Assembly: GCF_004114375.1 (NCBI RefSeq)
Contig: NZ_CP034692.1
Location: forward strand, 434,001-498,000
Source: Halorubrum sp. BOL3-1
GTDB lineage: Archaea > Halobacteriota > Halobacteria > Halobacteriales > Haloferacaceae
DNA length: 64,000 nt
Reading direction: 5' to 3'
The notes under the pieces were generated by a model. The model ran no database searches. It was not told where the DNA came from and worked only from the letters and a program-made list of their open reading frames with translations. This document shows, piece by piece, positions 2,323 to 61,900 of the stretch (position 1 is the stretch's first letter; each line of letters opens with the position of its first letter). Position numbers and translations under genes: made by a program.

Positions 2323-5300
2323 CTAGAACGGCGCGGTCTCGTCTCCGTCTCGCTCCGTCTCGGGACCGAACCCGACCTCCGGCACCGGATCGTCTCCTTC
2401 GGCCTCCGCGACCGTGTCCGGTACGGGCTCGTACCCGTCCGGACCGTACCGGGCGAACTCGCGGTCGTACGTCTGGAGGTACCGGACCTGTTCCGAGCGC
2501 AGCCCGTATATCGAGCCGAGAAGGAACTCGACCTCGTCGACGATCTCTTTCACGCCGCGTTCTCCCCGGTAGCCGATGTCACCGCTCGACTCGACGTGCC
2601 GGCTCAGTCCCTCCTCGAGGAGGTCGGCGTAGTGCCGAATCAGCGGCTGCCAGGGAGCGACCGACGACCGCGCCGGGGCCGGAAACCGTCGGAACCGACC
2701 CTTCCCGAAGTCCTGCATGTTCCCGTAGGTCATGTGGTAGCTGTACAGGAGAGAGCTGTTCGCCGCCAGATACGCGAAATCACGCGTGGTCTCGTTCGGG
2801 AAGCAGTACTCTTTCATGTTGTTCAGGCCGTCGCCGCCTCTGGTCGCCACCAGCCAGTAGTTGAACGAGCGACGGTGACGGACGCGGTACGACGACTCGT
2901 CGACCTCCCAGTCTCCGATCTTCTTCGGCGCGTCGGAGAGGGCTTCGAGAACGCCGCGTTTCGTCTCGCCGCCCACCTTCGGAAACACGTCGAACCTCTC
3001 GCCCCGACTACCCCCGATGCGATCGCGTAAGATCAGGTCCGTGACCGGACTCAGCTCGTGTTCCCTGATAGTTGTCTCGCGAGACTCGGCGGAGAACCGC
3101 AGGAAGTCGCTCGAACGGATCCCCTGAGCCGGTCCCTCCGAGTGCTCCGGATCCCGATCGCCCGCGCCGACCGGCCGTCCGGTAATGATCGTCGGATTGA
3201 TTTCGACGCGGCTTCCCGAGCGGTTGAACACCTGCGACGGTCGTCGAGCAAACGAGGATATCTCGGCCGATTCGAAGTCGTCCGCGATGAGGTCGTGTTC
3301 GGCCCCCCGCTCGCTGCTCGACAGCACGCCCACAGTCACGATGTTTCCGAAGAAGCCGTCCGAGGACAACAGGTGGAGTTCCCGTTCGATGAAGTTGCCC
3401 GAGACCTCCCCGCTGCGTAGCTCCTCGTACCCCCCGCCCGTCTTCATCGGCGTCAGGAGGCGCTTCTCGCTGTCGGTGAGCAGGTCGCCGTACGGGGGGT
3501 TTCCGAGGACGACGTCGAAATCGAGCGTGTACCCCGAGTCGGTCTCCGTGACCGCTTCCGGGAATTCGGCGATCCAGTGGAACGGTTTCCCCTTGATATC
3601 CGCCAAATCAAGCGGAAGCGGCTGTCTCTCGACCTCCGAGAAGACGATGTCGTCGTCCAGTACGGTTCCGAGGTCGCGATCGAGTCCGCCCCGCGCCTCG
3701 TCGGACCGCGTTTTGAGCGTCCTCTCGCGTTCGCCCACGTCCAAGTTCGCCGTGGTCCCGGTGTGGTATACGTCGAAGCCGGCGGATTCGAGGGAGGACC
3801 GCTGTTCCGCCGAGAACTCGCCGCCTCCGGCCGGTCTCGCTTTGATGTGTTGAACGCTCGGATAGACGTTCTCGGAGTCCGCTATCGACCCGACGAGGCG
3901 ACGGAGTTGCTCACGGCTTTCGACACCGTCGTCCACCGTCGTCTCGGAGAGCAGCGAAATGTACTTCTCGTTGAGTTCCGGCCGGATGTCCTGCGTCAAG
4001 CGATCGTTGATCTCTTCGCGGGCGTTCGACCCGGCGTCCGCGTCGAACTTGTACTCCAGCCGCCGTCTCTCGACCTCGGTAATGTCGTCGTTCCAGACGT
4101 CGATTCGGTTGATACTGCCGGTGACGGGAAACCCTATCAGCGCGTTCCCGTGCGCGACGTTCATGTCGACGTTCGGGAGCCGCGCGTACGACTCTTCCCA
4201 GCCGTTGTCTTCGACGATCTTGAGCCACACGCGTAGACGAGCGATCTCGGTGGCGGCTTCGTGGACGTCGACGCCGAAGACGCTGGTCAACGCGAGTTCG
4301 CGTTTCGCCTCGTACCGCCGCTGTGCGGACGGCTCGTCTCCGTCGGCGAGTCCGGTGAGCAGTTTGATCTGCGCGCGGTGTAGCCGGTCCATGGCCGTCG
4401 TGAGGAAGTGACCGGAGCCGCACGCGGGGTCGACCACTCGGAGGTCCGTGACGCTCTCTACTGCCGCCTCTATCACCTCCGGTTCGTCGAACGGGACCTC
4501 GACCTCCGCGGATCCCTCGTCCCGCTGGAGCACGAGCCTCTTCTGTGCCGAGAAGTAGTCGAGTATCCCTCCCAGATCCAGCCGGTCCAAGCGGCTCCGA
4601 ACGACCTCCCTCTCGTCCGCGTCGTCGAACCGATCGAGGACGACGTCGGAGACGGCCGCTTCGATCGCCGGTTCGACGGTGCTCTCCGTTATCCGCTCCG
4701 TGATGTCAGTCGGCGTGTATATCGCCCCCAACTCCTCCTTCTGTAGTCCGACGTCGGGCTTCGCGCCGAGGTGATTGATAACCTTCTCGAAGACGGTACC
4801 GATGATCGACGGGTCGAGGGTTCCGTTCGTCGTCAGCGAGTCCCCTCCCTCCATGTCTCCCTCGATAAGCTCTAAGATGATCCGCTTCAAGATCCTGTTT
4901 TCCACGTCGTACTCCGCCTCGTTCGGAACGGCGGAACGGAACAGTCCGCCGTTGAGATACGGAATCCGATCGTGCCACGAGTCCGGATCTCGCAGGTCCG
5001 GAAGCCGCTCCTCTTTCGGCGTGTTCAACAGGTTTGCGAACAGCGGTCGGATCTCGGACTCGTAGAGGCTGAGCGGGGGTTCCGACTCCTCGTACCGCTC
5101 GACCCGTCCGGCCAAGAACCCGTATTCGATCGCGTCGACGTCCCGCTCTTCGAGGAGCCTGATGAAGAGGAGCCGATTCACGAGCGTGAGCGTGAACATC
5201 CGCCGTTCGGACTCCGGAGTCGAACTGTCCGGCGGGGAGACGGACGAGAGGAGGTTCGTCTCGAACGAGTGAGTCGTCCCCTCGCCGAAGAGCAGCTCGA

Positions 5301-6087
5301 TGTACAGGTCGTAAAACTCCTCGATGTCGCGTCGCCGCTGCTCCCGTCGCTCTCGGGGAGCCTGTCGCAGACGCCGATCGAGACTCGCTCGCCCGAACTG
5401 CGCGTCGAACCCGACGGTCGTCCAGCCCGGCTCGCGTCGAGGGCTCGGAAGGCGATCGAGCGCGGCCGCCGCGTCACCGGATCCGGACGCCGCCAGCGTG
5501 ACGTCTTCTACCGCGTCGCGCACGGCGTTGACGTCGGTCCCCCCCCTGCTCACCTCGACGTCCGAGGGAAGGATCGCCTCGTCTAGGTACCCTAAGTCGA
5601 CGGCCGTGGCCAACAGCGCCTGACGGGTGTCTATCGCGGAGATGACCGGATACCGGGTGAAGTCCCCCTGCGCTTCGGCCCTGTGTAACCGCCACACGAC
5701 CCCGTCCGTGGCGATGCCGTAGTTCTCGTCTCTGAACGCACCGATGTACTCTTCGAGGTCTTCGCTCGCCTCGGCTATCTTCCCTATCGATTTCGCTTCA
5801 CCGACGACGGGCGCGTCCACGTTCGTGATCTGGAAGTCGGGGTACGTCACGCTCGGGCCGGTCTGGTCTTTCGGCTGACCGTTGACCCGGAGGTCGGCCG
5901 CTTCGAGTATCGGGTGTACGAGCGTCTCTTCGGTGACCGTCTCCGATTCGCACCCGATGTCGAAGTCGCTGAGGGGTCGTTCGCCGGTGAGGATCGCTTC
6001 GAACGCCTGCGGATCGACCTCGTTCCGAAGTTCGGTGACGAACGCCTCGAAGGCCGCTCTGACCGCCGAGTTCGGTGTGTCGGTCAT
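2323..6087 (-). CDS. Single-chain restriction-modification enzyme, Eco57I / type IIG-like
   Basis: 1254-residue protein that joins a nuclease and an N6-adenine methyltransferase. Residues 83-99 contain PD-x12-EAK (D84, E97, K99), the PD-(D/E)xK nuclease core. Methylase parts follow: YTP at 457-459 (motif X-like), DPACGSGHF at 553-561 (motif I, AdoMet) and NPPYGD at 863-868 (motif IV, catalytic). The last 300 residues would hold the target-recognition region. All motifs are intact and there is no frameshift, so it is probably active. No separate methylase, specificity subunit or BREX gene is nearby. Codon use is less GC-biased than in neighbours, suggesting transfer. It could also be described as a PglX-like methylase, but the N-terminal nuclease favours type IIG. 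Confidence 0.88.
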   Translation of the reverse strand: MTDTPNSAVRAAFEAFVTELRNEVDPQAFEAILTGERPLSDFDIGCESETVTEETLVHPILEAADLRVNGQPKDQTGPSVTYPDFQITNVDAPVVGEAKSIGKIAEASEDLEEYIGAFRDENYGIATDGVVWRLHRAEAQGDFTRYPVISAIDTRQALLATAVDLGYLDEAILPSDVEVSRGGTDVNAVRDAVEDVTLAASGSGDAAAALDRLPSPRREPGWTTVGFDAQFGRASLDRRLRQAPRERREQRRRDIEEFYDLYIELLFGEGTTHSFETNLLSSVSPPDSSTPESERRMFTLTLVNRLLFIRLLEERDVDAIEYGFLAGRVERYEESEPPLSLYESEIRPLFANLLNTPKEERLPDLRDPDSWHDRIPYLNGGLFRSAVPNEAEYDVENRILKRIILELIEGDMEGGDSLTTNGTLDPSIIGTVFEKVINHLGAKPDVGLQKEELGAIYTPTDITERITESTVEPAIEAAVSDVVLDRFDDADEREVVRSRLDRLDLGGILDYFSAQKRLVLQRDEGSAEVEVPFDEPEVIEAAVESVTDLRVVDPACGSGHFLTTAMDRLHRAQIKLLTGLADGDEPSAQRRYEAKRELALTSVFGVDVHEAATEIARLRVWLKIVEDNGWEESYARLPNVDMNVAHGNALIGFPVTGSINRIDVWNDDITEVERRRLEYKFDADAGSNAREEINDRLTQDIRPELNEKYISLLSETTVDDGVESREQLRRLVGSIADSENVYPSVQHIKARPAGGGEFSAEQRSSLESAGFDVYHTGTTANLDVGERERTLKTRSDEARGGLDRDLGTVLDDDIVFSEVERQPLPLDLADIKGKPFHWIAEFPEAVTETDSGYTLDFDVVLGNPPYGDLLTDSEKRLLTPMKTGGGYEELRSGEVSGNFIERELHLLSSDGFFGNIVTVGVLSSSERGAEHDLIADDFESAEISSFARRPSQVFNRSGSRVEINPTIITGRPVGAGDRDPEHSEGPAQGIRSSDFLRFSAESRETTIREHELSPVTDLILRDRIGGSRGERFDVFPKVGGETKRGVLEALSDAPKKIGDWEVDESSYRVRHRRSFNYWLVATRGGDGLNNMKEYCFPNETTRDFAYLAANSSLLYSYHMTYGNMQDFGKGRFRRFPAPARSSVAPWQPLIRHYADLLEEGLSRHVESSGDIGYRGERGVKEIVDEVEFLLGSIYGLRSEQVRYLQTYDREFARYGPDGYEPVPDTVAEAEGDDPVPEVGFGPETERDGDETAPF

Positions 6088-6300
6088 ACCACCGCACGGG
6101 GGGGCGCCGGGGGCTCCGAGAGATCCATTCGGTACGGCGGTTCCGCCGGACTCGTCTTAGTCCTACTGTTGGCGTCGACTCCGCCGGCCGAATCGGGAGA
6201 CTGTCGGTCCCACGTCGCTCGCTACGACGAAGCCGACGCTGTGACCGACATCCCGAATCCCCGGCCGCTCGGCTATACGCTGCTGATCTCGTCACGACTA

Positions 6301-6666
6301 CGACCGCCGAAGCCCCAGCCGGGGAGCGGGCGCACGCTCGCTGTGGTCCTCAGTCGCTCGCTGCGCTCGTTCTTTCCGGTCCCTGCGTCACCTGCGCCCG
6401 CTCCCCGGCTGCCCCTTCGAGTCCCACCCGACCGCGACCGCACCTCACGCCTCCCCAGCCTCGTCACCGGCCCTACGCGCCGGTTACAAGCGAGAGCTTC
6501 GCTCTCGCCCTGTCGCTGGCACTCTCCGCTTCGCTCCGGGAGCCAGCGACTCCCTCGCGCGGCGCTGTCGCCGGCGGCTTCTCCGCCGGCTATCAGAGAG
6601 GCCTTCGGTCTCTCCCTACTCGCGGCCGCCGGTGGCGGCCGCTCCCAGGCGCGCGTCACCGCACGG
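6301..6666 (+). repeat. Dispersed multi-hairpin repeat, copy A (longest)
   Basis: Non-coding GC-rich element. It begins near GCCGAAGCCCCAGCC, has a core near 6410-6475 (CTGCCCCTTCGAGTCCCACC, then CCTCACGCCTCCCCAGCCTC), and ends near GGCGCGCGTCACCGCA. Between core and end there are at least four short perfect hairpins, for example GAGAGCTTCGCTCTC and GCCGCCGGTGGCGGC. The same order of blocks occurs at 10156-10308, 54321-54625 and 61636-61900. The 200 bp before it (6088-6300) hold the promoter side of the restriction gene and nothing else I can name. Confidence 0.75.
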
Positions 6667-10155: not shown

Positions 10156-10308
10156 GCGGTGGCGCGTGCCTGCGAGCGGCGAGGCTGGGGAGGCGTGAGG
10201 TGCTGTGCGGGGCGGGAATCGAAGGGGTAGTCGGGAGGCGGGCGCAGGCGTTCGTGTCGTCGACAACAACCGCGTCGAACTGAGCGGCTGGGGCTTCGGC
10301 GGTCGTAC
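10156..10308 (-). repeat. Dispersed multi-hairpin repeat, copy B (short)
   Basis: Read on the minus strand it starts with CGACCGCCGAAGCCCCAGCC, continues to CCCCTTCGATTCCC and CCTCACGCCTCCCCAGCCTC, and ends with GGCACGCGCCACCGC. The long hairpin block between core and end seen in copy A is missing. It fills most of the 222-bp gap between two convergent genes. Confidence 0.7.
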
Positions 10309-54320: not shown

Positions 54321-54625
54321 TGCGGTGGCGCGTGCCTCCGAGTGGCCGCCTCCGGCGGTCACGAGGAACACGCGCGAGGGAGTCGGCCGCTCGGAGCAAC
54401 GCGGAGAGTGGCCGACGAGGTTGGGGAGGTATGAGGCGCGGTTGCGGTGCGGGCGGGTGGACTCAAACGGGCAGCCGCGAGGACGAAGACGGCGACGTAA
54501 GTAGCGAGAGACCGAAGGTCTCTCCGACAGCCGGCGGCTCCGCCGCCGGCGAGACCGCAGGAGCGAGCACCGCGAGCGACGAGGACCACACCAAGCCCAT
54601 CGAGTCCTCGCGGCTGGGGCCTTAG
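54321..54625 (-). repeat. Dispersed multi-hairpin repeat, copy C
   Basis: Read on the minus strand: starts TAAGGCCCCAGCCGCGAGGA, has the cUUCGg-type hairpin GAGAGACCTTCGGTCTCTC, core CTGCCCGTTTGAGTCCACCC and CCTCATACCTCCCCAACCTC, and ends GGCACGCGCCACCGCA. Block order equals copy A. It occupies most of the 533-bp gap (54225-54757) between two divergent genes; the rest of the gap holds their promoters. Confidence 0.75.
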
Positions 54626-61635: not shown

Positions 61636-61900
61636 CCCCGAAGCCCCGGCCGCGAGGGCTCCCGCGGCTCGGTGCGCTCCTCGCTCGGTCGCTTCGCTCC
61701 CTCGCTGCGGTGCTTCCGTCGCCGGGGTTCGCCCTCCCGACTGCCCCTTCGAGTCCCACCCGACCGCACCGCACCTCGCGCCTCCCCAGCCTCGCGGCTC
61801 GCTTGGGGCTCCCTCTGGTCGCCCGCGTCGCTCGCCGCGTCCCTCGCACGACGCTCCTCGCGCCCGTTCGAGCGCTCGGAGGCGCGCGCCGCCGCACCGG
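61636..61900 (+). repeat. Dispersed multi-hairpin repeat, copy D
   Basis: CCCCGAAGCCCCGGCCGCGA, then CTGCCCCTTCGAGTCCCACC, CCTCGCGCCTCCCCAGCCTC, and GGCGCGCGCCGCCGCACCGG mark start, core and end. The hairpin block between core and end is present but diverged. It fills the divergent promoter region between thioredoxin and cysteine synthase genes (61510-61981). Confidence 0.75.

Follow-up and report, generated by a model that had tools for sequence, protein, structure and literature searches.

Repeat Copies in the Analysed Window

The question raised by this locus was what kind of repeat occupies several gene gaps of the window, the stretch of 64,000 nt of Halorubrum sp. BOL3-1 that was analysed. 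The sequence-only reading had described a four-copy family of long, gene-free, multi-hairpin repeats and had proposed a non-autonomous element or a structured RNA family. All four copies were confirmed near the positions first given, with their limits refined, and the blocks followed one another as claimed: left end, core, CCTCCCCAGCC block, and right end. Both orientations were also borne out, with copies 1 and 4 on the plus strand and copies 2 and 3 on the minus strand. While the four copies were real, the family size had been set too low, for the window holds four of roughly 100 genome copies.

Copy 1 (6309–6662, plus strand) was a full-length copy of 354 bp with hairpin insertions in its right half, in which the left end, core, middle block, and right end lay in order; it was flanked by two minus-strand genes. 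The core CTGCCCCTTCGAGTCCCACC (6409–6428) and the middle block CCTCACGCCTCCCCAGCCTC (6443–6462) were exact matches, and the C-run of the latter was invariant in 27 aligned copies. The right end GGCGCGCGTCACCGC (6648–6662) coincided with the sharp end of conservation after this motif in 71 copies. A second left-end motif lay at −54, that is, 54 bp before the copy's own left end, and marked an upstream unit at 6255–6308. The left hairpin module (6308–6419) could be read directly, and the same pairing covaried class-wide. It consisted of an outer stem (CGAAG at 6308–6312 with CTTCG at 6415–6419), an internal loop (CCCC at 6313–6316 opposite GCCC at 6411–6414), and an inner stem of 18 bp (6317–6334 with 6393–6410), all on the plus strand.

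Copy 2 (10156–10297, minus strand) was truncated and degenerate (142 bp), with its left end at 10286–10297, a core with three mismatches at 10211–10230, and the middle block at 10181–10200; its right module was mostly missing. Copy 3 (54322–54623, minus strand) was also degenerate and had an altered left end, with four mismatches in the core (54455–54474) and two in the middle block (54417–54436). Copy 4 (61640–61895, plus strand), a standard-length copy of 256 bp that entered the 27-copy alignment A1, carried an exact core at 61741–61760. The gene context was as originally described: copies 3 and 4 occupied divergent gene gaps and copy 2 lay between convergent stops. In agreement with the claim that the copies hold no gene, the open reading frames across them gave no hit in Pfam, even with the threshold relaxed to E 0.1, and an origin as remnants of a protein gene was rejected on this ground.

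The gene adjoining copy 1 (2323–6087) was a minus-strand gene of 1254 aa with an NPPYGD motif. By eye, it resembles an adenine-specific DNA methyltransferase belonging to a restriction or BREX-type system.

Structure of the Element

In the host genome, the core CTGCCCCTTCGAGTCCCACC was found at 106 sites with at most three mismatches, compared with none for the reversed pattern. The resemblance is thus not due to chance, and the family has about 25 times as many copies as the window alone reveals. The anatomy was drawn from 74 core sites of this genome. In order, these showed an optional upstream array of 51–69-bp units, the left hairpin module, AGTCCCRCC, and a CA-rich linker. The linker was followed by the block CCTCACGCCTCCCCAGCCTC and a hairpin, and then by CCCTCGCGC and the final hairpin; the right end GGCRCGCGCCACCGC closed the element, and conservation stopped abruptly beyond it (71 copies). 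Copy length started at 131 bases and reached several hundred, as hairpins were shortened, lengthened, or added. The spacing from left end to core was 17–21 bp in the shortest left modules, compared with 98–102 bp in the common form.

The units of the upstream array each ended in CCGAAGCCCCAGCC and were mostly spaced 51–69 bp apart. At least one extra unit was present in 49 of 68 host-genome copies, and at least four kinds of these tandem units, each closed by a left-end motif, were observed ahead of most copies (for example, loci L042 and L010). The spacings were multiples of three in 68 of 72 cases (51, 54, 57, 63, 66, and 69), and most units, read in one frame, gave peptides of the type ...TEAPAAR.... 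A coding role, suggested by these spacings and by one frame that stayed open longer, was nevertheless rejected, because in that frame a variable base, the one immediately ahead of the left end, would be a first codon position; in addition, one unit type had a stop in it, and the units were judged not coding.

Two further modules were observed. Six loci (L002, L017, L018, L061, L066, and L067) had a separate AT-richer leader of about 110–160 bp (CTGAAACACCCG...GCGGTGAACACCTCC) upstream of the left end. Since this leader was common to a subset of copies, the mobile or converted unit may exceed the hairpin part. Moreover, L027, L066, L067, and a copy in genome G062 (123329 of the examined stretch) contained an extra module of about 130–170 bp with its own hairpins, which occupied one same place, between the core and the middle block, also in another species.

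Base-Pair Covariation of the Hairpin Module

The unit that recurred across the class was a folded hairpin module. It was made up of a 5-bp outer stem, the CCCC/GCCC internal loop, an inner stem unconstrained in sequence and length but with arms that remained complementary, and then AGTCCCRCC, with SRAAG-CCCC as its conserved foot. RNAalifold analysis of 27 copies gave 43 pairs, 24 of which had changed on both sides, and a typical copy folded better than all 200 of its shuffles (z −3.6). For 54 distinct class-wide modules, 97.4% of the cells were paired; shuffling lowered this to 66% and sliding to 47% or less. The covariation score was 0.749 versus 0.169. The inner-stem figure is inflated, because a minimum stem score was applied in choosing these modules. 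A qualifying stem was found in 207 of the 257 exact cores that had enough upstream sequence, and the loop of the left hairpin was inverted between its arms in three of 227 modules.

The outer stem was examined on 190 modules that had been picked without use of it. Its states covaried as CAAAG:CTTTG (93), CGAAG:CTTCG (65), and GAAAG:CTTTC (23), with nine exceptions. Furthermore, the core variant CCCCTTCCAG predicted GGAAG as its left partner before the loci were read, and GGAAG:CTTCC was present in 15 of 17 loci; the remaining two had GAAAG, and the partners were again chosen without the outer stem. The proposal of a structured RNA family therefore held in its first half, given the covariation and the predicted fourth state. 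The RNA half drew less support: G-U pairs were nearly absent on the strand read.

Distribution in Halobacteria

The core was searched against haloarchaeal genomes, and copies were found in related genomes, including 8–172 in each of the 22 congeners (22/22). Distant matches on Halobaculum and Halorussus plasmids led to the generalised core GCCCCTTYSARTCCCRCC. Exact matches to it were present in 223 of the 341 Halobacteria genomes, spread over 59 of the 81 genera, and missing from the other 118; the control gave no hits. Outside Halobacteria, one of 242 genomes had a single site. In a scan of GTDB contigs, the named loci among the matches listed were from Halorubrum, except for one uncultured archaeon (A07HR67). 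The family is most simply an old resident of Halobacteria. A virus-borne origin was rejected, because no exact cores were found in the viral contigs of IMG/VR and no phage record matched.

The form of the element differed among lineages. In other families, the module stood alone, head-to-head, or joined to a right module, and in the head-to-head form two cores lay about 36–46 bp apart around a palindromic centre. The Halorubrum form adds the right module and the tandem 51–69-bp upstream units. As to the terminal inverted repeats expected of a MITE, the head-to-head copies of other lineages had inverted ends ACAGCCAGAAAGCCCC, whereas the Halorubrum form had none. The copy number swung strongly inside genera, with 59 versus 0 (g17), 86 versus 0 (g68), and 66 versus 0 (g42).

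A 455-kb stretch (G000:C3, 2.86–3.31 Mb), much of whose second half had a GC content of 54–63%, and the smaller contigs were without copies among the matches listed, where approximately nine were expected; the listing covered all but a few of the 106 core sites, which makes this approximate. The pattern suggests that the stretch is an acquired region within the main chromosome.

Genomic Context and Turnover

Nearly all of the 67 copies analysed lay wholly inside gene gaps. By context, 27 were in co-directional tandem, 12 in reversed tandem, 16 in convergent, and 12 in divergent gaps, so that the tandem placements showed a mild co-directional excess (27:12). When orthologous loci with and without a copy were compared, at least eight gaps were filled in one species (400–818 bp) and short in another (27–111 bp), with flanks of 80–94% identity. 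The filled gaps were as much as a few hundred bases longer than the recognisable element, and some of the empty sites could therefore be deletions. Neither a target-site duplication nor an exact insertion junction was recovered; the nearest genomes compared were about 85–92% identical and their gaps did not align. Likewise, no target duplication was seen by eye around three head-to-head copies. Two copies that lie 132 kb apart had 99% identity along 349 bp, a match that ran about 40 bp beyond the right end, while their left parts and the sequence on both sides of the match diverged; the pattern resembles gene conversion or recent copying.

Among neighbouring copies of the host genome, the five closest pairs (L039, L053, L056, L028, and L010/L072) were all arranged minus–plus, with their left ends facing, around ordinary genes. 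A composite element was rejected, since the genes between seven close pairs were ordinary, differed from place to place, and included no recognisable transposase. In addition, the analysis revealed neither an autonomous element nor a helper gene, and no gene lay inside the element. The observations that could have spoken against the original description were also sought: related genomes carried copies, no protein gene was present, and no known parent transposon was recognised, an IS-library comparison lying outside this search.

Nature of the Family

The results show a folded module that is constrained to pair, is scattered through the genomes, and turns over. We consider the family, with a probability of roughly 60%, to be non-autonomous, gene-free interspersed hairpin elements that occur across families of Halobacteria and spread in bursts within lineages; by analogy, we read them as possibly working like REPIN, BIME, and SMR elements. 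The term "non-autonomous element" of the first description was supported by the high copy number and by the gene-free copies in all gene contexts, as well as by presence and absence at orthologous gaps and the large copy-number swings between congeners. The folded hairpin might be recognised, as single-stranded or extruded DNA or as an RNA copy, together with the short outer-stem, CCCC, and AGTCCC sequences; a trans-acting enzyme would move or copy it. Arm-to-arm correction and gene conversion could then keep arms and copies alike. A host benefit, if any, would be secondary, as in REP/BIME elements. In a stronger form, which we put forward tentatively and at less than even odds, the family would be a mobile hairpin of archaea that is old and class-wide and is defined by its structure more than by its sequence, with a putative enzyme outside Y1/IS605 recognising a module of fixed C4 loop and freely evolving stem.

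A structured non-coding RNA family, with copies transcribed and folded as multi-hairpin RNA to serve as RNA genes or UTR elements, was judged unlikely. The strong pair covariation suits it, although compensatory changes, a criterion for structured RNA, fit RNA and folded DNA alike, and G-U pairs filled just one of 810 cells on the strand read. The co-directional excess within tandem gene pairs also agrees with transcription, but the copies were found in all gene contexts. Moreover, a TATA-like box stood exactly 30–31 bp ahead of the left end GAAGCCCC in 14 of 68 Halorubrum copies, the distance at which an archaeal promoter would start transcription at the left end; the box was missing from most Halorubrum copies and not evident in 20 loci from other families. 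The strand cues conflicted as well. Isolated stem mismatches were A·C more often than G·T (54 versus 11), mostly in one column, and would favour RNA from the opposite strand, whereas the TATA boxes, which are not general, point to the strand read. A strand call from these mismatches was rejected as not decisive, because one column carried most of the A·C excess.

Less likely still was a DNA site maintained by the host for chromosome topology, the nucleoid, or replication, like a protein-binding palindrome. The copies of the host genome were confined to the main chromosome among the matches listed, and the C4 tracts were among the most conserved columns of the alignment; G4 tracts on the opposite strand could form quadruplexes that the high-potassium cytoplasm would stabilise. 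However, such a site would hardly range from 0 to about 170 copies among congeners and classmates, with the exact core missing from 118 of 341 genomes; orthologous positions were often not kept, and divergent copies occurred on plasmids of other species. The least probable of the explanations, and a very improbable one, was that the copies are PATE-type remnants of IS200/IS605 or REPs mobilised by a resident Y1 (HUH) transposase. The palindromes, the single-strand folding, and the short tags recall REP and PATE biology (PMC3119063, PMC2817692, PMC3733652), but the sole Y1 locus of the host genome had unrelated ends with different terminal hairpins, the comparison of IS605 ends covering this one locus. 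Furthermore, element-rich genomes had no Y1_Tnp match at all (G016 with 69 copies, G019 with 81, G055 with 66, G005 with 79, and G082 with 73), which indicates that a resident Y1 transposase is not needed. Both an IS605/PATE and a REP-RAYT origin were rejected on these grounds.

Comparison with Known Repeats

The suggestion that the family might be undescribed was provisionally supported. Rfam 15 at its curated threshold gave no family for the copies and just a tRNA in the window, and the core sequence was found in neither orientation in open-access papers; subscription papers, ISfinder, and supplements were outside this scope. The nearest description by keyword search was the SMR/PATE study of Haloquadratum (PMC3119063). 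We provisionally regard the family as undescribed, an interspersed palindromic repeat free of transposase that was not filed within PATE, REP, or another named family.

SMR-A and SMR-B of Haloquadratum walsbyi are near-identical copies of about 80–110 bp, with SMR-A mostly inside other mobile elements (PMC3119063). Like these, the present elements are short, gene-free, and haloarchaeal, with no known parental transposon, and their head-to-head form has inverted termini, with no target duplication seen by eye. Unlike them, the hairpin family is 130–450 bp long, divergent, intergenic, and class-wide, a separation based on the SMR description and not on the SMR sequence. The PATEs of haloarchaea are palindromes related to IS605-type ends (PMC3119063); they are likewise haloarchaeal, gene-free, and palindrome-rich, but no relation to IS605 ends was found here at the one Y1 locus compared. 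REPs are 20–40 bp long, bear a GTAG or CGTC tag (PMC3733652), and occur in association with the Y1 transposase RAYT (PMC2817692, PMC3116915). The resemblance to REP, BIME, and REPIN elements lies in about 100 modular intergenic palindromes per genome, which occur singly or as inverted pairs and have a short conserved tag beside the stem. However, the tag of the hairpin family is CCCC with a covarying 5-bp stem, there is no GTAG or CGTC tag, and no resident Y1 is needed.

Like the hairpin family, the bacterial ERIC/RU and BOX are intergenic palindromic repeats that occur in several genera with no known mobiliser, and BOX is likewise modular. They are unrelated in sequence and belong to another domain, nor are they defined by a variable stem of free sequence around a fixed internal loop; the RU repeats were described in PMC2759123. 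The attC sites of integrons have short conserved outer boxes and a stem of variable length and free sequence, and are recognised as folded DNA. The outer boxes and the stem are common to the hairpin family, which differs in having no integrase link or cassette arrays and in its copies being dispersed singly in both orientations.

Interspersed palindromic repeats have been studied mostly in bacteria and tied to Y1 transposases. If the preferred reading is true, Archaea would have a counterpart of their own, class-wide and defined by structure, which relies on another mobiliser, needs no resident Y1 gene, and numbers thousands of copies among the genomes sampled. The copy-number swings within genera are a ready comparative data set for finding the mobilising enzyme. 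In addition, the family explains many of the gaps left unannotated in haloarchaeal genomes, and it probably gives rise to misannotated open reading frames and to recombination substrates.

The only element of the IS200/IS605 type found in the host genome was at C3:992992 (L138), where a tnpA-like gene was followed by a tnpB-like gene.
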